32,867 bases of DNA from positions 1 through 32,867 of the forward strand of contig DAOUQH010000008.1 of assembly GCA_030625645.1 (NCBI GenBank), given 5' to 3'. Under the pieces are notes generated by a model, which ran no database searches, was not told the origin of the DNA, and worked only from the letters and a program-made list of their open reading frames with translations. Source of the DNA: Flavobacteriia bacterium. Its GTDB lineage: Bacteria > Bacteroidota > Bacteroidia > Flavobacteriales > Flavobacteriaceae. Each line of letters begins with the position of its first letter. The stretch's first letter is position 1. The position numbers and the translations under genes are program-made. Shown here piece by piece: positions 507-21,173 of this stretch.

Positions 507-962
507 TTAAAAATATAAAGAGCTTACTTGATCACAAACAAATACCAATAATTCTTCATCAGTTTTCGAAAAAGGATTCAATTGATGAGAATCAATATCA
601 ATCTGCCCAATATTTTTTCCATCTTTAAAGATTGGAATAACAATTTCTGATTTCACATCGATTCCACAAGAAATATAGTTATCCTGCTCACTAACATCTT
701 GAACAATATATTTCTTGTTACTAAGAGCTACTTGACCACAAATTCCTTTACCAAATGGTATAATGGTATGTTCTGTTGGTTTTCCCGAAAATTGAGCAAG
801 TTTTAATTCTTCCTTTTCACCATTTTTAAAATAAAAACCTACCCAATCATAATAAGATATTTCAGTTCTTAAAATATTACAGATTTCTTTTAAATTATCC
901 TCTTTATTAGCGTTGTTGTCAATAATGCGAATAATTTCATCTTTTAATTTGCTAAATTTCAT
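507..962 (-). CDS. GAF-domain protein, free methionine-R-sulfoxide reductase-like
   Basis: This is a single GAF domain of 151 residues, the usual size of the fRMsr (YebR) family, which reduces free methionine-R-sulfoxide in the cytoplasm. Family signatures are visible: YYDWVGFY near 37-44, PFGKGICGQVA at 69-79, NYISCGID at 95-102, EIVIPIF and GQIDIDS at 119-125. Cys99 aligns with the catalytic Cys118 of E. coli YebR and Cys75 with Cys94. The position of the other YebR cysteine, Cys84, is His65 here. The gene is divergent from xrtF with 51 bases between starts. A TAATTTTG -7-like element on the minus strand at 989-996 could drive it, but the upstream element there is poor. A signalling GAF role cannot be excluded. 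Confidence 0.82.
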   Translation of the reverse strand: MKFSKLKDEIIRIIDNNANKEDNLKEICNILRTEISYYDWVGFYFKNGEKEELKLAQFSGKPTEHTIIPFGKGICGQVALSNKKYIVQDVSEQDNYISCGIDVKSEIVIPIFKDGKNIGQIDIDSHQLNPFSKTDEELLVFVCDQVSSLYF

Positions 963-1013: not shown

Positions 1014-1571
1014 GTGAAAAAAAATAAAACTATCATAATTTTTTTGATAAAATTTTTTGTAACCTATTTTTTTCTTTCTGGTTTGTATTCGCTTTATTTA
1101 CACGAAACTCAGGAAAAAGTTGGAGTTTTCTCATGTGCACCAATCACAAAACAAGTTGCTGAACATACTAAAGTTTTGTCAGAGCTATTAGGTTTAGATA
1201 GTCATGTAGAGCAAAGTGATGATGAACTTTCGATGAAATTTTTTATTAATAATCAGCATGTTTCAAATGTTGTTGAAGGCTGTAGCTCTATAAGTGTAAT
1301 TATTTTGTTCTTATCATTTATTATTGCCTTTTCAGGAGGTTTTAAAGAAACATTCTTTTTCGCAATATTTGGAATTATTACTATTTATCTGGTCAATCTA
1401 TTTCGAATATTCTTATTGGGCTATTGGTATTTGAAAAATCCTTATTCAAGTGAAGTTTTTCACGATTATGTTTTTCCTGCTATAATCTATGGTTATGTAT
1501 TTTTACTTTGGATTGTTTGGGTTAAGCATTTTTCAAATCATAATCAATTAAAAAATGTCAAAAGCAGTTAA
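1014..1571 (+). CDS. xrtF: XrtF, exosortase-family membrane transpeptidase
   Basis: This is a polytopic inner-membrane protein of 185 residues related to exosortases and archaeosortases, which cleave C-terminal sorting tails and move the protein to an envelope acceptor. The expected catalytic residues are present: Cys90 in VVEGCSS, Arg131 in NLFRI and His150 in FHDYVFP. Hydrophobic segments lie near 6-28, 93-107, 112-138 and 152-170. Translation starts at a GTG; no in-frame ATG lies near it. The 3' end overlaps the next gene by 17 bases, pointing to translational coupling with the XrtF-associated protein. I know of no established substrate for XrtF, and no protein in this window shows an obvious sorting tail. 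Confidence 0.9.
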   Translation: MKKNKTIIIFLIKFFVTYFFLSGLYSLYLHETQEKVGVFSCAPITKQVAEHTKVLSELLGLDSHVEQSDDELSMKFFINNQHVSNVVEGCSSISVIILFLSFIIAFSGGFKETFFFAIFGIITIYLVNLFRIFLLGYWYLKNPYSSEVFHDYVFPAIIYGYVFLLWIVWVKHFSNHNQLKNVKSS

Positions 1572-1986
1572 AATCATACTTATATTATTTTTATTCTTCT
1601 TATTAATTTTAGTGAGATTTTTTGCCGATCATTATTTGTACGATCCACTTATCAAATATTTTAATTATGATTTTTTAAGTGAATCTATTCCAGTAATTCA
1701 TGGAAGAAAATTATTGTTCAGTATGTTTTTAAGATATAGTATCAATACAATAATTTCATTGCTCATTATTTGGGTAGCCTTTGAAAATAAAAATCACTTA
1801 AGATTCTCGGTTAAATTCTATATAATAGCATTTCTATTTCTAACATTTGCTTTTTTTGTTATTTTAAAAGGAGAACTCAAACAAGGGTATTTATTAGCAT
1901 TTTATATTCGCCGATTTATTATTCATCCACTTTTTGTATTAATACTACTGCCTGCAATTTATTATAAGAGTAAAGTTGATAAATGA
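1555..1986 (+). CDS. Exosortase F system-associated membrane protein
   Basis: This small integral membrane protein has 143 residues and about four transmembrane segments (near 5-23, 58-76, 88-104 and 120-136). It is recognised mainly by its place directly after xrtF and by the motif YIRRFIIHPLF before the last helix, which fits the flavobacterial family that accompanies XrtF. Its role is unknown; a partner or stabiliser of the sortase is an inference. The ATG lies inside the xrtF 3' end, in another frame. The reading frame ends in a short basic tail, YKSKVDK. Confidence 0.85.
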   Translation: MSKAVKIILILFLFFLLILVRFFADHYLYDPLIKYFNYDFLSESIPVIHGRKLLFSMFLRYSINTIISLLIIWVAFENKNHLRFSVKFYIIAFLFLTFAFFVILKGELKQGYLLAFYIRRFIIHPLFVLILLPAIYYKSKVDK

Positions 1987-2038
1987 TTTTAACATTTTTT
2001 TAAATTTAAAGTATTGTTTTATTGTTACATTTGTTACG

Positions 2039-2461
2039 ATGGTACAATTTATACATAAAATAATCGCCTTTATTCTAGCCTTGATTGTTATTTTTTCAAG
2101 TTTATCTTTTACTGTTGAAAAACATGTTTGTGGAGGAGAAATTGTAGATGTATCTTATATTGGTAATGCTGAAAGTTGCGGTATGGAAAACGAAAATGAT
2201 TGTGATAATAATGATTTTTCTCACAAGAATTTTTCTAAAAAATCGTGTTGTGATGACATATCAGAGTATATTCAAGGAAATAATATTGAGCAACCTGCCG
2301 TTAAAAACTTAGAACTTGATAAAGTTCAATTTATTTTAGCTTTTACCTTTTCTTATATTTCTAGTTTTGGTGATAATATTAAATTCATAAATTTTAAAGA
2401 CTATTATCCACCTCTGTTTAACAGAGATATACAGGTCTTTTACCAAACTTTCCTTATTTGA
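2039..2461 (+). CDS. HYC_CC_PP family Cys-rich membrane-anchored protein
   Basis: The protein has 140 residues with an N-terminal hydrophobic segment (about 7-24) that would anchor it or direct export. The exported part carries the hallmarks of the HYC_CC_PP family: KHVCGG at 28-33 (Val replaces the usual Tyr), a Cys-Cys pair at 70-71 and YYPP at 122-125. Extra cysteines lie at 47 and 55 in an acidic stretch. The function is not established; five Cys plus nearby His suggest metal or thiol chemistry. I chose the ATG at 2039 over an in-frame ATG at 1976, because the longer start overlaps the previous gene and puts about 20 extra residues before the signal-like segment. It is followed by the copper-pump operon in the same direction. 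Confidence 0.8.
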   Translation: MVQFIHKIIAFILALIVIFSSLSFTVEKHVCGGEIVDVSYIGNAESCGMENENDCDNNDFSHKNFSKKSCCDDISEYIQGNNIEQPAVKNLELDKVQFILAFTFSYISSFGDNIKFINFKDYYPPLFNRDIQVFYQTFLI

Positions 2462-2641: not shown

Positions 2642-5600
2642 ATGCTAAATAAAATTATACGTTATTTTCTTGAAAAAAAGGTTATAACATTCACATTGTT
2701 AATCGCTTTTATATTTGCAGGAATTGTTACAGCACCATTTAATTGGAAAACTTCATTTATTGAAAGAAATCCTGTGCCTGTAGATGCAATTCCTGATATT
2801 GGTGAAAATCAGCAAATAGTTTTTACAGAATGGCAAGGGCGGTCACCTCAAGATATTGATAATCAAATAACTTACCCACTTACAACTTCCTTACTTGGTA
2901 TTCCCGGTGTAAAAACGATTCGTTCTAACTCAATATTTGGAGTTTCAAGTATCTATATCATTTTTGAGGATAATATTGATTTTTACTGGAGTAGAACCCG
3001 AATATTAGAAAAATTGAATTCACTTTCACCTGGTATTTTACCTGTGGGTGTCAAACCTACATTGGGACCTGATGCTACTGCTTTAGGACAAGTTTATTGG
3101 TATACTTTAGAAGGAAGAGATTCAAAAACTGGAAAGCCAACTGGAGGTTGGGATCCGCAAGAATTGCGTTCAATTCAGGATTTTTATATAAGATATTATT
3201 TAACCGCTACAAAAGGTGTTTCTGAAGTTGCCTCTATCGGTGGTTTTGTTAAAGAATATCAGATTGATATTGATCCGGATGCTATGAAAGCACATGGAGT
3301 TGATATAAAAAAAATCAGAAATGCAGTTAAAAATAGCAATCTTGATATAGGTGCACAAACAATTGAATTTAACAGAACCGAATATCTGGTTAGAGGACTG
3401 GGATATATTAAAAACATAAAGGATCTAGAAGAAAGTGTTATCACTGTTAATGGCACAACGCCAATTAGATTAAAAGATGTAGCCAAAATTCAATTAGGTC
3501 CGGCAACTCGTAGAGGTGGTTTAGATAAAAGTGGAGTTGAGGCAGTTGGAGGAGTTGTGGTTGCTCGTTATGGTGCAAATCCATTTGAAACTATTCAAAA
3601 TTTAAAAGAAAAAATCAAAGAAGTAGCGCAAGGATTACCAAGTAAAACCTTGGCGGATGGTACTATTTCAAAAGTTACCATCATTCCTTTTTACGATCGA
3701 TCTAACTTAATCCAAGAAACTTTAGGCACTCTAGAATCGGCACTTTCTCACGAGATTTTAATTAGTATTTTGGTTGTAATCGTATTAGTTTTAAATATAA
3801 GAGCATCTATCTTGATTTCAAGTTTATTGCCAATAGGAGTTTTAATGACTTTTATTTTGATGAAATTCTTTAAAATTGATGCCAATATTGTTGCCCTTTC
3901 TGGGATTGCGATAGCAATTGGAGTAATGGTAGATGTTGGTATCATTTTTACCGAAAATATTATCCGTCATCTTGAAATGCCTGAAAATATTTTGGCAAAA
4001 GGCAAAAAATTAGTCCATGTAATTTATACAGCAATAACCGAAGTAGCATCGGCAGTTATTACAGCTTTAGCAACAACAATTGTAAGTTTTTTACCAATTT
4101 TTGCCATGCAAGCTTCTGAAGGAAAATTATTTAAACCCTTAGCTTTTACCAAAACATTTGCTTTGATTTCAGCATTATTCATAGGAATCCTATTTATTCC
4201 GGCAATAGCTCATTTATTATTTTCAATTAGAATAAAGAAAAAGAGGGTTTCTAATATATTTAATACTCTTATAATTGGTGTAGGTTTATTTTTTTTAATT
4301 GTTTATGGAAACGTAATTTCAATTGCATTAATTGCATTTGGATTGAACAATCTTCTTTCTATAGCTAAAGAAATAAATATTGGAAAATTAGAGTTTCTAT
4401 ATTCTGATAAAATTGCAACCTACATAAATATCATTATTACAATTATGGTAGCTGTGTATTTTCTAACAATAGAATGGATGCCACTTAGCACATCAAATTC
4501 AACTTTTATAAACTTTATTTTTATAATAGTTTTAGTGGGCGTTATCTTAGGATTTTTAATGACAATAGTTCATTATTATACACAAATTCTCAGCTGGTGT
4601 TTAGATAATAAAGTTAAGTTTTTGATTTTACCAGTTATTTCCATTTTCATGGGAATAATAATCTGGTTTGGTTTTTCAACACTCTTTAGTTTTATGCCAA
4701 GTTTTTCAAAAAATAATATTGTTTGGAAGAAAGTAACTGAAACCTTCCCTGGGATTGGTAACGAATTTATGCCTGCTTTAGATGAAGGTTCATTCCTCTT
4801 GATGCCAACAACAATGCCTCATTCCGGAATAACCGAAAATACAGAAATCATTGCTAGGATTGATAAAAATTTAAACTCTATCCCAGAAGTAGCTTCTGCT
4901 GTTGGAAAATGGGGGCGAGTAAATTCAGCTTTAGACCCAGCACCAACTTCTATGTTTGAAAATACAATCAATTATATCCCTGAATTTATTTTGGATGAAG
5001 ATGGTCGCCGAATAAGATTTAAAGTTAATCAAAAAGGAGCTTTTATTTTAAAAAATAATTCAACTTATAAATATGGAGAAGATGTTTTTAAGAAGATTTT
5101 GATTAAAGAGTTGATTATAGATGAGGGTGGTCAATATTTTAGACAGTGGAGAAAACATATTAAAAATTCTGATGATATCTGGAAAGAAATTTTAAAACAC
5201 TCAAAGTTTCCAGGATTAACTTCAGCACCCAAATTACAACCTATTCAAACTCGCTTAATCATGTTGTCAACAGGTATGCGGGCACCAATGGGAATTAAAG
5301 TTTTTGGACCAACTTTAGAAGCCATCGAAAAAACAGGTTTTGAATTGGAAAAACTTTTGAAAGAAGTGCCAAGTATAGATGCTTCAACTGTTTTTGCCGA
5401 TAGAGTTGTGGGGAAACCTTATTTAGAAATCGAGCTAGACCGCCAAGCAATGTCACGTTACGGAATTACAGTAAGCGATTTGCAAGATCAATTAGCAATT
5501 GTAATTGGAGGTAAAAAATTAAGTACAACGGTAGAGGGAAGAGAACGCTATTCAGTGCGAGTTCGATATGCTCGAGAACTAAGGGATAACCCAGATGATC

Positions 5601-6451
5601 TAAATAAAATTTTAATTTTAACCCCTTTAGGTAAACAAATTTTGTTAAGTGAATTGACAACAATAAATTATGTAAAAGGCCCGCAGATGATAAGAAGTGA
5701 AAATACATTTTTAACTTCTTATGTAATTTTTGATATGAAAGAAGGCTTTGCAGAAACAAATGTTGTTAAAGAAGCTCAAAATTTTATTCAAACCAAATTA
5801 GAAAACGGAGAATTCGCTTTACCAGATGGAGTTACTTTTCAGTTTACTGGAAACTATGAAAATCAGCTAAGGGCATCAAAAAGGTTAAAGATTGTTGTTC
5901 CAATTGCTCTACTTATAATTTTCCTGATTTTGTATTTACAATTTAAAAAAATTGCACCATCATTAATGATTTTTACTGGCATTTTTGTTGCCTTTTCAGG
6001 CGGATTTATTATGCTTTGGTTATTTGATCAAAATTGGTTTTTGAATTTTAATTTGGCAGATGTTTCTATGAGAGATTTATTTCAGATTCATCCCATTAAT
6101 TTAAGTGTTGCTGTTTGGGTTGGATTTATTGCTCTTTTCGGAATCGCAACCGATGATGGAGTGATTATGGGAACTTATTTAAAGCAAGTTTTTGAAAAAG
6201 AAAAACCAAAAACAGTAGAAGATATTCGTAAATATGTTTTGTATTCAGGTAACAAAAGGGTTCGACCTGCAGTAATGACTACAGCAACAACAATTATAGC
6301 ATTAATTCCAGTGCTAACTGCAACAGGAAAAGGTTCAGATATAATGATTCCAATGGCAATTCCAATTTTTGGAGGGATGCTTTTACAAGTTATGACCATG
6401 TTTGTTGTACCGGTTTTATACAGTATTTGGGAAGAAATAAAAATAAAATAA
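2642..6451 (+). CDS. cusA: CusA/CzcA-type heavy-metal RND efflux pump, likely Cu(I)/Ag(I)
   Basis: This is the inner-membrane proton-driven subunit of a tripartite metal efflux pump, 1269 residues against about 1045 for E. coli CusA. RND features are present: an N-terminal helix, the periplasmic start VDAIPDIGENQQIVFTEW, the TM4 proton-relay region with Asp431 in MVDVGI, and a TM10 region with Asp1171-Asp1172 in IATDDGVIM. Three methionines, Met721 (LLMPTT), Met771 (TSMFEN) and Met874 (LIMLST), align with CusA Met573, Met623 and Met672, the Cu(I)/Ag(I)-binding triad. Two insertions explain the length: about 140 residues with three or four extra hydrophobic helices near 530-680, and about 54 residues between Met771 and Met874. 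It is first of a cusA-tolC-cusB set. Confidence 0.93.
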   Translation: MLNKIIRYFLEKKVITFTLLIAFIFAGIVTAPFNWKTSFIERNPVPVDAIPDIGENQQIVFTEWQGRSPQDIDNQITYPLTTSLLGIPGVKTIRSNSIFGVSSIYIIFEDNIDFYWSRTRILEKLNSLSPGILPVGVKPTLGPDATALGQVYWYTLEGRDSKTGKPTGGWDPQELRSIQDFYIRYYLTATKGVSEVASIGGFVKEYQIDIDPDAMKAHGVDIKKIRNAVKNSNLDIGAQTIEFNRTEYLVRGLGYIKNIKDLEESVITVNGTTPIRLKDVAKIQLGPATRRGGLDKSGVEAVGGVVVARYGANPFETIQNLKEKIKEVAQGLPSKTLADGTISKVTIIPFYDRSNLIQETLGTLESALSHEILISILVVIVLVLNIRASILISSLLPIGVLMTFILMKFFKIDANIVALSGIAIAIGVMVDVGIIFTENIIRHLEMPENILAKGKKLVHVIYTAITEVASAVITALATTIVSFLPIFAMQASEGKLFKPLAFTKTFALISALFIGILFIPAIAHLLFSIRIKKKRVSNIFNTLIIGVGLFFLIVYGNVISIALIAFGLNNLLSIAKEINIGKLEFLYSDKIATYINIIITIMVAVYFLTIEWMPLSTSNSTFINFIFIIVLVGVILGFLMTIVHYYTQILSWCLDNKVKFLILPVISIFMGIIIWFGFSTLFSFMPSFSKNNIVWKKVTETFPGIGNEFMPALDEGSFLLMPTTMPHSGITENTEIIARIDKNLNSIPEVASAVGKWGRVNSALDPAPTSMFENTINYIPEFILDEDGRRIRFKVNQKGAFILKNNSTYKYGEDVFKKILIKELIIDEGGQYFRQWRKHIKNSDDIWKEILKHSKFPGLTSAPKLQPIQTRLIMLSTGMRAPMGIKVFGPTLEAIEKTGFELEKLLKEVPSIDASTVFADRVVGKPYLEIELDRQAMSRYGITVSDLQDQLAIVIGGKKLSTTVEGRERYSVRVRYARELRDNPDDLNKILILTPLGKQILLSELTTINYVKGPQMIRSENTFLTSYVIFDMKEGFAETNVVKEAQNFIQTKLENGEFALPDGVTFQFTGNYENQLRASKRLKIVVPIALLIIFLILYLQFKKIAPSLMIFTGIFVAFSGGFIMLWLFDQNWFLNFNLADVSMRDLFQIHPINLSVAVWVGFIALFGIATDDGVIMGTYLKQVFEKEKPKTVEDIRKYVLYSGNKRVRPAVMTTATTIIALIPVLTATGKGSDIMIPMAIPIFGGMLLQVMTMFVVPVLYSIWEEIKIK

Positions 6452-6484
6452 TAATCGTGAGATTAAAAAATAAATGTTATAAAA

Positions 6485-7723
6485 ATGAAAAATAAAATAA
6501 TATTTCTTAATATATTTTTGATGATTTCCTTATCGGGAATTGCTCAAGAATCATTAAATACATATTTAAAAACAGCAGCTAATAATAATCCTGGATTAAA
6601 ATCAAAATTTAGTGTTTATATGGCAGCAATGGAAAAAGTTTCGCAAGTAGGTGCCTTACCAGATCCGAAATTTACTTTTGGATATTTTATCGAGCCGATA
6701 GAAACTAAGGTTGGACCTCAGAAAGCAACTTTTAGTTTAAAACAAGCCTTTCCTTGGTTTGGTTTGTTAGATGCAAAAGGTAACGTAGCTACTGATTTGG
6801 CAAATGCTAAATATGAGGTTTTTGAAAACAGTAAATCTAACTTGTATTTTGAGGTAAAAACAGTTTTTTATAACTACTATTTTATGGAAAAAGCAATTGG
6901 AATTACTAAAGATAATATGGTGATTTTACAAATTTTCAAGAATCTTTCTTTGGTTAAGATAGAAACAGGAAGCGCTTCTATTATTGATGAGCTAAGAGTT
7001 GAATTAGAAATTAATGACCTAGAAAATCAATTGGCTTTTTTAATAGATTCCAAAAACACATTACAAGTAAAGTTTAATAATTTATTAAATCAGAAGACAA
7101 ACGAGATAATCAAAATCCCGGATACTTTAGAACAAAAAGAAATAACTTTTGATAAGACAATATTGCTAGATTCAATTTACAATTCTAATCACGAATTAAA
7201 AAGTATAGATCATAAATTAAATGCTTTTATGAATTTGGAAGAAGTGGCAAAAAAAGAAGGAATGCCAAAATTTGATCTTGGGTTCAACTATATTATTGTT
7301 GGCAAAAATAAAAATTCAATAGCTTCAAATAATGGTGATGATGCATTTTTACTACCCTCCATCGGAATATCAATTCCGATTTATCGAAAAAAGTATAAGG
7401 CTATGATTAAAGAGGCTAAGTACTTGCAAGAATCGGAAATTGCTAAAAAACACAATAAAAAAAACACATTAAATACGATATATGAAAATACATTTAAAGA
7501 ATTTAGTGATAGTAGGAGGAGGGTGATTTTAAATCAGAAACAATCGGTAATTGCTAAAAAAGTACTCGATATTTTAATTACTTCATATTCTAATAACTCA
7601 AAAGATTTTGAAGAGGTTTTACGAATTGAAAAACAATTATTGAAATATAAATTAGAATACCAAAGAGCAATTGTAGATGAAAATATAGCAATTGCATTTA
7701 TAGGTTATTTACAGGGAAAATAA
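6485..7723 (+). CDS. TolC/CusC-family outer-membrane efflux protein
   Basis: This is the likely outer-membrane channel of the metal pump, 412 residues with a signal peptide ending near LSGIAQ at residue 20. The body shows TolC-family traits: NNNPGLKS near the start, GALPDPKFTFGY, SLKQAFPWFG, and long amphipathic helical stretches arranged as two halves. It lies 33 bases after cusA and 63 before the adaptor gene, in the same direction. No lipobox Cys is present, unlike E. coli CusC, so it is probably not lipidated. The fit to the copper pump comes from its position between the other two subunits. Confidence 0.88.
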   Translation: MKNKIIFLNIFLMISLSGIAQESLNTYLKTAANNNPGLKSKFSVYMAAMEKVSQVGALPDPKFTFGYFIEPIETKVGPQKATFSLKQAFPWFGLLDAKGNVATDLANAKYEVFENSKSNLYFEVKTVFYNYYFMEKAIGITKDNMVILQIFKNLSLVKIETGSASIIDELRVELEINDLENQLAFLIDSKNTLQVKFNNLLNQKTNEIIKIPDTLEQKEITFDKTILLDSIYNSNHELKSIDHKLNAFMNLEEVAKKEGMPKFDLGFNYIIVGKNKNSIASNNGDDAFLLPSIGISIPIYRKKYKAMIKEAKYLQESEIAKKHNKKNTLNTIYENTFKEFSDSRRRVILNQKQSVIAKKVLDILITSYSNNSKDFEEVLRIEKQLLKYKLEYQRAIVDENIAIAFIGYLQGK

Positions 7724-7786
7724 ATTTATTAAATTTCAAAAGGAACATAACAAAACAGAATTTATTAAAGCTTAAAGCATTTAAAA

Positions 7787-9514
7787 ATGAAATATAAGAA
7801 TCTTATTATTGGAATTGGAATTTTATTCTTAGGAATTTTAATCGGGAATATCTTTTCAGGGAGTGAAAATAGTTCTCAAGTAGAAAATGAACATTTGTAT
7901 TCAGTTGAAAAGGAAAATCAAATTTGGACATGCTCTATGCATCCACAAATAAAACTAGAAAAAGAAGGGCAGTGCCCAATTTGTGCAATGGATTTAATTC
8001 CGCTTGTCGAAAATAATTCCACTGAAAAAATTGAACAAAATGAAATTGTAATGACACCAGAGGCTATTCAATTAGCTAATATTCAAACTATCGAAATTAA
8101 AAAATCTAATGTAAATAAAGAGATTAGATTATTAGGAACTGTAAAGGCAGATGAACGAAGAATATCTTCGCAAGTTTCACATATCTCTGGTAGAATTGAG
8201 CAATTGTATATAAACTTTACCGGTGAAAAAGTAAGAAAAGGGCAACGAATAGCCAAAATATATTCACCAGAATTAATCTCAGCACAAAAAGAACTTTTTG
8301 AAGCAATAAAATCAAAAGATATTTATCCTCAATTATTTATAGCATCAAAAAATAAATTAAAATCATGGAAATTATCAGAATCGCAAATTGAAGCAATTAT
8401 AAAGTCAAGGAAAGTAAAAGAAAAGATAGATATTTTATCAGATTATTCAGGCTTTGTAATGAGTAAATATGTTGCATTGGGTGATTATTTAAATGTAGGC
8501 TCAAAATTATTTGAAATTGCAAATATTGATAAAGTTTGGATTCTATTTGATGTCTATGAAGCAGATATTCCATGGATAAAAAAGGGAGATGAAATTACAT
8601 TTTATATACAGGCGGTTCAGGGTGAAAATTTAAAAGGTAGAATTACTCATATTGATCCTTTTGTTTCTTCAGAAAGTAGGGTTGCAAAAGTAAGGGTTGA
8701 GCTTAATAATAAATCGCATAAATTATTACCAGAAATGTATGCAAATGGAACCGTCAAAGCTAAGCTATCCAATGAAGAAAATGCTATTATTATTCCTAAA
8801 TCAGCTGTACTCTGGACAGGTAAAAGATCTATAGTTTACGTGAGAGTTCCGCATAAGAATACGATTTCATTTGCCTATCGAGAAATTATTTTGGGGGATA
8901 ATCTTGGTGAATTCTATCTAGTAAGAAATGGTTTGCTTGTAGGTGAATCTATTGCTGTAAATGGCGTTTTTAGGATTGATGCTTCTGCACAATTAATGGG
9001 AAAGCAAAGTATGATGAATCAAGTAGCGAATTCAAAATCAAAAAAAACAAGTGTTAAAATTGATTCGGTGTTTCAGAAAAATATGGGATTTGTAATTGAA
9101 AATTATACTTTCTTAAAAAATGCTTTAGTAGAATCGGATGCGCTAAAGTCTCAAAGTTTAGTGAAAAATATAAAAAAATCTGTAAATACATTAGATATAA
9201 AATCACTAAATAGAGACATCTATGATGTTTGGTTAAAAGCATTGAAACCAATTAATAAAGCTCTAGAAACCATTCAAAACTCAACAGATATTGAAGTACA
9301 AAGGGAAGTGTTTATTGCATTGAGTTATGAAATGATAAATATAATTGAGAATTTAGGAATTGAAACTTTTAATAATAAACCTTTATATCTTGAATTTTGC
9401 CCGATGGCAGATAACAATACTGGAGCCTATTGGTTGAGTTATGACAAAGAAATTAGAAATCCATATTTTGGTGATAAGATGTTGAAATGTGGAGAAGTAA
9501 AAACTGAGTATTAA
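7787..9514 (+). CDS. cusB: CusB-type RND adaptor with heavy-metal-binding and DUF3347 domains
   Basis: This periplasmic adaptor joins the inner-membrane pump to the outer-membrane channel; 575 residues. From the N-terminus it has a membrane anchor (about 5-22); a short heavy-metal-binding domain at 47-72 with WTCSMHP and GQCPICAMDL (Cys49, Met51, His52, Cys63, Cys66, Met68); an HlyD-type barrel-sandwich region (VSGRIEQLY-like segment near 145 and SDYSGFVMSKYV near 225); a beta-barrel part; and a C-terminal DUF3347 domain (about 425-575) with EFCPMADNNTGAYWLS and MLKCGEV. The extra domains make it longer than E. coli CusB (about 400 residues). Fused metal-binding ends suggest that metal is captured in the periplasm and passed to the pump. 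Confidence 0.9.
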   Translation: MKYKNLIIGIGILFLGILIGNIFSGSENSSQVENEHLYSVEKENQIWTCSMHPQIKLEKEGQCPICAMDLIPLVENNSTEKIEQNEIVMTPEAIQLANIQTIEIKKSNVNKEIRLLGTVKADERRISSQVSHISGRIEQLYINFTGEKVRKGQRIAKIYSPELISAQKELFEAIKSKDIYPQLFIASKNKLKSWKLSESQIEAIIKSRKVKEKIDILSDYSGFVMSKYVALGDYLNVGSKLFEIANIDKVWILFDVYEADIPWIKKGDEITFYIQAVQGENLKGRITHIDPFVSSESRVAKVRVELNNKSHKLLPEMYANGTVKAKLSNEENAIIIPKSAVLWTGKRSIVYVRVPHKNTISFAYREIILGDNLGEFYLVRNGLLVGESIAVNGVFRIDASAQLMGKQSMMNQVANSKSKKTSVKIDSVFQKNMGFVIENYTFLKNALVESDALKSQSLVKNIKKSVNTLDIKSLNRDIYDVWLKALKPINKALETIQNSTDIEVQREVFIALSYEMINIIENLGIETFNNKPLYLEFCPMADNNTGAYWLSYDKEIRNPYFGDKMLKCGEVKTEY

Positions 9515-9660
9515 TTAATAACCTAATTTTTAGGTAATTATTAGCTCTAACTTAGGTTGATAAGTATTTTAAAAATCCCCATTTATAGAACAATAAAAAG
9601 AACTTATTTGAGTTAATAAACTTGGAAATAAAAAATTTATTTAAACTAAAATTATTTATC

Positions 9661-9999
9661 ATGAAAAAATTCAATTTTACATTAGCTGTATTAGTAATTT
9701 TTGGACTTGCAATTACATCGTGTAATGAAACCAAAAAGGAAGAAGTAAAAAAAGAACAAACTGAGGTTAAAGCCGAAGTTAAAGGAGAAAAAGCACTTGA
9801 AAAAGTTACTGAATCTGAAGAGGTTGCAATGGCAGTTTATGCCTGCCCAATGAAGTGTGAAGGAGACAAAACGTATTCTGAAGAAGGTTCTTGTCCAAAA
9901 TGTAATATGGATTTGAAAAAAGTAGAAGCTTCACATGATGATGATGATAATGAAAAGAAGTCTGAAGAAGAAAATCATGATGGTCATGACCATGATTAG
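9661..9999 (+). CDS. Heavy-metal-binding-domain lipoprotein with His/Asp tail
   Basis: A 112-residue lipoprotein with lipid-bearing Cys21 after LAITS. A Lys/Glu-rich linker leads to a heavy-metal-binding domain: YACPMKC at 60-66 and GSCPKCNMDL at 76-85 (Cys62, Met64, Cys66, Cys78, Cys81, Met83). This matches the N-terminal domain of the adjacent CusB-type adaptor except that Cys66 replaces the usual His-Pro. The C-terminus is acidic and His-rich (HDDDD, then NHDGHDHD), a likely extra metal site. I took the ATG at 9661 because the signal peptide begins there; an in-frame ATG at 9622 would add 13 residues before it. The likely role is a periplasmic metal chaperone or sponge for the pump. A terminator follows. 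Confidence 0.85.
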   Translation: MKKFNFTLAVLVIFGLAITSCNETKKEEVKKEQTEVKAEVKGEKALEKVTESEEVAMAVYACPMKCEGDKTYSEEGSCPKCNMDLKKVEASHDDDDNEKKSEEENHDGHDHD

Positions 10000-20990: not shown

Positions 20991-21173
20991 TTACTTTTCT
21001 CTATTTTTTCGCTTTTTAGCCAAATAATAAAAAAGATAAGCTAAGCCTGCAAGAACTACAAACGGCAGATATGTGCCAATTACTACACCAATTTCATATT
21101 TTTCATCAGGTGCATTTTTCATTTTTTCTTCAATATCGACTTGAAGGAATAAAAGCAATGGAAGTAGATTCAT
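20991..21173 (-). CDS. Small (60-aa) membrane protein
   Basis: A 60-residue protein with a short N-terminal hydrophobic stretch (LLPLLLFL), an acidic/basic middle (IEEKMKNAPDEKYE) and one strong transmembrane helix (about 28-50, VVIGTYLPFVVLAGLAYLFYYL) ending in a basic tail (KKRKNREK). The start at 21173 is the first ATG; an internal Met18 in EEKMKNAPDE could be an alternative start. I do not know its function. It lies 31 bases after the crotonase-fold gene and 20 before glpK, in a tight same-strand run, which supports it being a real gene. Confidence 0.65.
   Translation of the reverse strand: MNLLPLLLFLQVDIEEKMKNAPDEKYEIGVVIGTYLPFVVLAGLAYLFYYLAKKRKNREK

Follow-up and report, generated by a model that had tools for sequence, protein, structure and literature searches.

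A tiny PID-tailed protein encoded beside riboflavin synthase is a strong candidate substrate of the exosortase XrtF in Flavobacteriaceae

Which protein does the exosortase family protein XrtF cut? The question is raised by the first genes of a stretch of 32,867 nucleotides from a Flavobacteriia bacterium (GenBank DAOUQH010000008.1), called here the window. In an assembly of 1.96 Mb and 141 contigs, rated 69% complete, the window makes up contig C59. Its xrtF gene (1014–1571, forward strand, GTG start) encodes a protein of 185 residues, the AlphaFold2 model of which has a mean pLDDT of 89. The protein scores 183.4 bits against TIGR04128 over residues 1–174 (curated cut-off 90) and 50.3 bits against the general exosortase/archaeosortase signature TIGR04178 (cut-off 23), while Pfam Exosortase_EpsH gives 21.7 bits, under its cut-off of 25.7. 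An earlier note on this DNA described the catalytic residues as intact, and this is confirmed: Cys90, Arg131 and His150 of the exosortase/archaeosortase core can be read directly in the sequence and are invariant in all 30 aligned XrtF sequences. The interval 1014–1986 that the note gives for XrtF is not a single gene. It holds a second one (1555–1986, forward strand), which overlaps xrtF by 17 bases and encodes an XrtF-associated membrane protein of 143 residues (TIGR04127, 128 bits, cut-off 35). This partner is predicted to be mostly helical (AlphaFold2 mean pLDDT 82), and F116, R119, R120, F121, I123, P125, P133, A134, Y136 and Y137 are invariant in 30 TIGR04127 sequences. A Foldseek search of the PDB at E ≤ 0.001 returned no match for the model of either protein, VIA-align gave the XrtF model middling matches only (best Z 6.5), and the XrtF profile met a single PDB sequence, at E 0.29 and unrelated by name. 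The absence of good structure or sequence matches in the PDB is no argument against membership of the XrtF family.

The surroundings of the enzyme were compared in 80 related loci, taken with 8 kb on either side where available; neighbours were named by eye, save for the genes of the window, which were scored by profile. The TIGR04127 gene adjoins xrtF on its downstream side in 79 of the 80. Two flanking genes of the window are not counted here with the exosortase system: a divergent upstream gene for a GAF-domain protein (507–962, reverse strand; PF13185/PF01590 over cut-off), with a relative in 79 loci, and a gene for a HYC_CC_PP family protein (1976–2461, forward strand, start uncertain; NF047658 94.8 bits, cut-off 28), with a relative in 71. 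By eye, the recurrent neighbours resemble purH and mreBCD on one flank of the pair, with HYC_CC_PP and metal/TonB genes on the opposite flank. Further downstream of the pair, the window encodes at 2642–9999 a CusA/CzcA-type efflux pump (1269 aa), a TolC-like protein, a CusB-like adaptor (heavy-metal-binding domain, DUF3347) and a small heavy-metal-binding-domain protein; a CusA-like gene follows xrtF in five of the 80 loci. A substrate in the conserved neighbourhood of XrtF was sought and rejected, with one marginal tail match (E 0.042) among 12067 frame pieces from the 80 loci.

For the window itself, all 565 reading-frame pieces of at least 25 residues were scanned with a tail profile of our own, built from 20 rows. 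The only match below E 0.05 is a frame of 60 residues at 20994–21173 on the reverse strand (12.7 bits, E 0.0034), which has a C-terminal helix and a basic end (YEIGVVIGTYLPFVVLAGLAYLFYYLAKKRKNREK) and no PID motif, and which has a look-alike in the genome taken below as Flavobacterium johnsoniae (G465:C1:635418–635600). The next best piece (E 0.06) is not tail-like. The earlier statement that no protein of the window carries a convincing exosortase-type tail thus stands. The tails of the type IX secretion system (T9SS), 13 of which were found in the window's genome, were also considered as XrtF targets; they were set aside because GldL, a T9SS/gliding protein, is present in all 30 genomes checked, including the XrtF-negative G006.

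The impression that XrtF has no visible substrate holds within the window and fails genome-wide. On another contig of the same assembly, C90, an open reading frame at 5876–6049 (forward strand) encodes a protein of 57 residues, MTRKYFNIVIFFIFLLTVENVFAPPPPPPVTPIDGGIYLLLALGAVFGVKKIWKKDK, which scores 39.9 bits against the NCBI PID_CTERM model (NF046080, cut-off 26); its match at C90:5966–6031 is the only one over the cut-off in this genome. The protein consists of a signal-like N-terminus, basic-hydrophobic by eye, six prolines, PIDGG, a hydrophobic helix and KKIWKKDK. On inspection, its C-terminus reads PIDGG-IYLLLALGAVFGV-KKIWKKDK, with the stop codon directly after it. The tail is of the PID type and not PEP, which places the protein outside the PEP-CTERM class. 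Among 16 tail-protein reading frames read, the length ranges from 57 to 96 residues. The next gene, on the opposite strand, is that for riboflavin synthase. The earlier note had proposed a search for tails that co-occur with xrtF. Such a search turns up a clear candidate in the window's own genome and in nearly all XrtF-positive relatives sampled, F. johnsoniae included.

The co-occurrence was measured in 298 genomes of a family (f1) that we take to be Flavobacteriaceae, 193 of which encode XrtF. At E ≤ 0.01, PID_CTERM finds a tail in 136 of the 193 XrtF-positive genomes (88 of them over the curated cut-off) and in none of the 105 XrtF-negative ones; in 14 control genomes it gave one match and none over the cut-off. 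Our own profile finds a tail in 179 of 193 and 2 of 105, respectively, or in 168 of 182 and 2 of 105 once 11 genomes linked to its training are removed. The union of both models reaches 185 of 193 vs. 2 of 105. Within Flavobacterium (g128), the tail is present in all 20 XrtF-positive genomes and in neither of the two listed XrtF-negative ones. Of 325 genomes sampled across the phylum, 101 have an XrtF-like exosortase match; these include all 75 that match the tail profile, and none of the 224 others does so. Fisher p-values, which ignore kinship, range from 1e-39 to 1e-67. A weak single-gene tree of riboflavin synthase from 44 genomes suggests that the XrtF label changed about six times (5–7), with only one independent pair resting on well-supported branches; in this pairs test one label stood for both XrtF and the tail, which coincide in every one of the 44 rows. 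As to the two XrtF-negative exceptions, G218 has a convincing tail and is a metagenome-assembled genome in which riboflavin synthase was likewise not found, and G023 has a marginal profile match (E 0.0095). A genome of the window's own genus that lies outside the sample of 298 (G004, 75% complete) carries, where a contig ends, a PID_CTERM match of 34 bits; XrtF was not found in it. As a separate matter of annotation, PID_CTERM at E ≤ 0.01 misses 57 of the 193 XrtF-positive genomes, and a broader model of the PID tail would help.

The tail gene also has a fixed position. It lies beside riboflavin synthase in all 24 XrtF-positive genomes read. When 15 XrtF-positive genomes were fetched around the tail gene, 14 had it at this site, as do the window's genome and F. 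johnsoniae; in the fifteenth, G101, another copy sits at the riboflavin synthase site. Furthermore, seven of the eight XrtF-positive genomes that have no match in the union encode a signal-like, proline-rich, helix-tailed protein beside riboflavin synthase, with the motifs PGLPIDAW, PELPLDGW, PQGPIDDF (twice), PGFPVG, PGLSLG and PGLTIG, so that several of these tails (PGFPVG, PGLSLG, PGLTIG) have no PID at all. In the eighth genome, G190, riboflavin synthase was not found. One method applied to 28 loci detected the gene in eight of eight XrtF-positive genomes and in none of 20 XrtF-negative ones, the latter being the first 20 listed of the 105. In seven of the eight positives there was a profile match below E 2, and the eighth, G206, was accepted by rule; four XrtF-negative pieces (from G069, G025, G084 and G028) pass the loose proline-plus-helix rule and are not tail-like by eye. 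Four of the XrtF-positive site cases, plus G323, were read frame by frame. Given this fixed site, the tail gene looks to be a single orthologue whose presence follows that of XrtF, though the two are unlinked.

The tail class appears to be tied to exosortases in general. In all three loci of a second exosortase that were read, one or two tail genes immediately precede the genes for the exosortase and the partner, forming a single row with them (L265:6293–7614, L266:5781–7088 and L267:6459–8404). These loci are exosortase X (XrtX)-like; each was retrieved by way of a tail match, one of them because its neighbourhood had already been seen. Their tails sit on reading frames of 103–134 residues, two of them in one locus, and some of the tail proteins have Cys-rich mature regions. 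The one enzyme scanned from these loci scores 119 bits to NF046081, below the cut-off of 170. Match counts follow the number of enzymes: PID_CTERM-positive genomes with a single exosortase match have exactly one NF046080 match in 112 of 118 cases and two in the other six, while 18 genomes with at least two exosortase matches have from one to seven (mean 2.7). The upstream tail genes and these counts therefore tie the tail class to exosortases, and they suggest that each exosortase has its own set of tail substrates. The XrtF system shares its tail class and its layout of enzyme and partner with the set PID-CTERM (NF046080), exosortase X (NF046081) and partner (NF046082). It differs in that the tail genes of XrtX loci are adjacent and encode larger proteins, whereas the tail gene of XrtF is unlinked, tiny, proline-rich and beside riboflavin synthase. 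A pairing of PID-CTERM with XrtX by NCBI is deduced here from neighbouring accessions, and NCBI may already link the tail to XrtF.

In a related known system, PEP-CTERM with exosortase A (EpsH), the enzyme has a Cys, Arg and His core and the substrates end in a C-terminal motif, a helix and a basic end. Both features recur in the XrtF system. XrtF differs from exosortase A in its short form of 185 residues, in the lack of a PEP motif and in having apparently one substrate instead of many. Exopolysaccharide genes, which are neighbours in the PEP-CTERM/exosortase A system, were not recognised by eye among the gene clusters that recur in the 80 XrtF loci.

The model species F. johnsoniae offers a link to published mutants. 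Genome G465 is taken as F. johnsoniae: over 206 residues its GldL has 100% identity with PDB 6ys8, which we take to be a protein of F. johnsoniae UW101. Its tail gene lies on the reverse strand of contig C1 (scan frame 710501–710767; also L143:10501–10743), measures 243 bp from the likely start and has 546 bp of free DNA upstream. Its 80-residue product begins with a signal-like segment, is rich in proline further on and closes with the tail PGLPINQDLPYLIAAGLLLGTAVIYRNKIKKASI. NF046080 does not match it (C1:710504–710743); it scores 60.6 bits on our own profile, of which this tail is itself one of the rows. A first search with this protein alone, at E ≤ 1, gave matches in 28 of 52 genomes, similar tiny proteins among them, and the tail class of these proteins is recognised by NCBIfam as PID_CTERM. 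The XrtF-negative matches in that search (G023, G031, G035 and G049) were weak, with E of 0.1–0.6, and by table correspond to in-frame stops or longer frames.

Fjoh locus numbers were assigned to this genome by counting genes. Gene porZ (Fjoh_0707) was placed by an open reading frame of 2283 bp, the size of a fragment given in PMC10936215, and Fjoh_0697 was anchored by eye on an OMP-like reading frame at 763979 with the help of PMC9870892. Small proteins with a helix at the C-terminus were sought in 240 kb of DNA about where Fjoh_0651 should lie; six frames matched, one of them the tail gene. The raw count back from Fjoh_0707 makes the tail frame 0639. The count anchored on Fjoh_0697, with ten small frames dropped as judged spurious, makes it 0650 and puts at 0651 a frame of 329 residues (711290–712279, 990 bp). 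This longer frame is unfit as Fjoh_0651, because it is too long for the complementing fragment of 434 bp. Among the small genes found there, only the tail gene agrees with the position of Fjoh_0651 as well as with the fragment. By gene count and fragment size, as opposed to annotation, the tail gene is very probably Fjoh_0651.

In PMC10936215, which deals with the same enzyme family and the same partner pair as those of the window (XrtF and Fjoh_1449), the authors constructed in-frame deletions of xrtF (Fjoh_1448), Fjoh_1449 and Fjoh_0651. Each of the three mutants loses sand colonization, biofilm and zorbs, and colonization is restored by complementation. There Fjoh_0651 is called a 'hypothetical protein', and it was complemented by a 434-bp fragment that includes the promoter. 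The same paper reports that only the sprA mutant among nine was non-spreading and that zorbs were lost in eight of the nine, including mutants in T9SS and polysaccharide genes. The shared phenotype is thus not specific, since eight of nine mutants lose zorbs. The reported INSeq depletion (log2) was 3.82 for xrtF, 3.74 for Fjoh_1449 and 2.14 for Fjoh_0651 in a pooled library of about 75,000 mutants. A freely shared signal is unlikely, because the insertions were depleted amid this pool; a product of the XrtF system that is attached to the cell fits the depletion better than a diffusible one.

It follows from the assignment of the locus number that the gene of the probable substrate has very probably been deleted already, unrecognised as such. 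In the parts of PMC10936215 seen by us, the link of Fjoh_0651 to XrtF as a substrate is absent; the authors predicted there that XrtF substrates are 'quite dissimilar from PEP-CTERM' and left them to future work. PMC12188702 calls the XrtF targets 'not yet known', in agreement with the earlier note, and the passage of PMC12645872 consulted has XrtF only as an entry in a gene-expression table. As far as the literature was searched, neither a published XrtF substrate nor any mention of PID-CTERM was found.

We propose, at a probability of roughly 0.8, that XrtF has a single dedicated substrate, itself little more than a tail, which this exosortase would cut together with the TIGR04127 partner. 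Enzyme and partner would sit in the inner membrane and act there on a very small exported protein, in which a signal-peptide-like N-terminus is followed by a brief proline-rich segment and a PID-type tail (PxPID, a hydrophobic helix and a Lys/Arg-rich end). The protein would be exported and halted by its tail. By analogy with other exosortases, Cys90, aided by Arg131 and His150, would then remove the tail by a cut close to PID, and the short proline-rich piece would be released or transferred to an acceptor. This piece would stay on the producing cell, where it would be needed for biofilm growth. Judged by eye, the proline-rich stretch has about 8 residues in the window's genome and up to about 40 elsewhere. 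A more tentative idea, to which we give somewhat less than even odds, is that XrtF installs a polyproline peptide of about 8–40 residues on a lipid or polysaccharide carrier, so that its role would be surface modification and not protein sorting.

Several other readings of the same data were weighed. XrtF might serve a broader set of substrates, the PID protein being one of several and the others having diverged tails that the profile misses. The drift of the tail motifs (PGFPVG, PGLSLG, PQGPIDDF) speaks for this, as does the fact that genomes were read in parts and not as whole proteomes. Further support comes from another family, f5: all six sampled genomes of its genus g36 (G040, G053, G771, G820, G831 and G852) have XrtF over the cut-off and no tail found genome-wide, and the surroundings of XrtF, fetched for five of the six, contain no convincing tail out to about 9 kb; two other f5 genomes carry tail frames, G834 two of them. 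The six g36 genomes count against the proposal of a single PID-tailed substrate as well. However, the single NF046080 match in 112 of 118 single-exosortase genomes, with multiple matches mostly accompanying second exosortases, argues the other way, and we consider the broader set unlikely, if worth keeping in mind. Two observations from other families may be added: G831 encodes XrtF twice, each copy over the cut-off, and in three f22 genomes (G748, G622 and G709) a protein of 59–67 residues with the tail PDVPI[ST]G[IV]EWL is encoded about 5–11 kb from an XrtF-like exosortase (L346:2276–2470, L347:16024–16203 and L348:13297–13500), a linked version of the system.

It is less likely still that the tail protein is merely co-inherited and stays uncut, whether as a subunit of the XrtF complex, an activator or a chaperone, or because both serve a third process. 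A subunit would give the same near-perfect profile and the same mutant phenotype, and a protein made up almost wholly of signal peptide and tail offers little cargo for a sorting substrate. Yet the tail is built like those of standard substrates and passes the curated NCBI cut-off of a sorting domain in the window's genome, and the same tail class occurs on the longer frames of the three XrtX loci, twice in one of them, as expected of substrates. That the substrate is the adjacent TIGR04127 protein, whose C-terminus consists of a helix followed by the basic tail KSKVDK, appears very improbable: its nearly constant place beside xrtF and, in PMC10936215, its identical deletion phenotype agree with such a role, but its C-terminal part is strongly conserved, unlike a discarded tail, and the predicted mostly helical fold is without the layout of signal peptide plus tail. 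Hardly any credence is left for the 60-residue frame at 20994–21173 as a substrate within the window that the earlier note had missed. Its helix and basic end, its weak 12.7-bit match and its look-alike in F. johnsoniae are outweighed by the lack of a PID or proline motif and of a clear signal peptide, by a distance of about 19 kb from xrtF and by the far better candidate (39.9 bits) elsewhere in the genome.

On the evidence of sequence comparison, a strong and testable candidate for the XrtF substrate can thus be named. XrtF is present in two thirds of the sampled genomes of the family and is needed for biofilm in the model species. With the candidate named, and with deletions of the enzyme, the partner and the probable substrate already existing in one background, the question is reduced to one tagging experiment. 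A cargo that is nearly tail-only, if true, would be uncommon among exosortases, and the XrtF system would then be a minimal one for finding the target of attachment.
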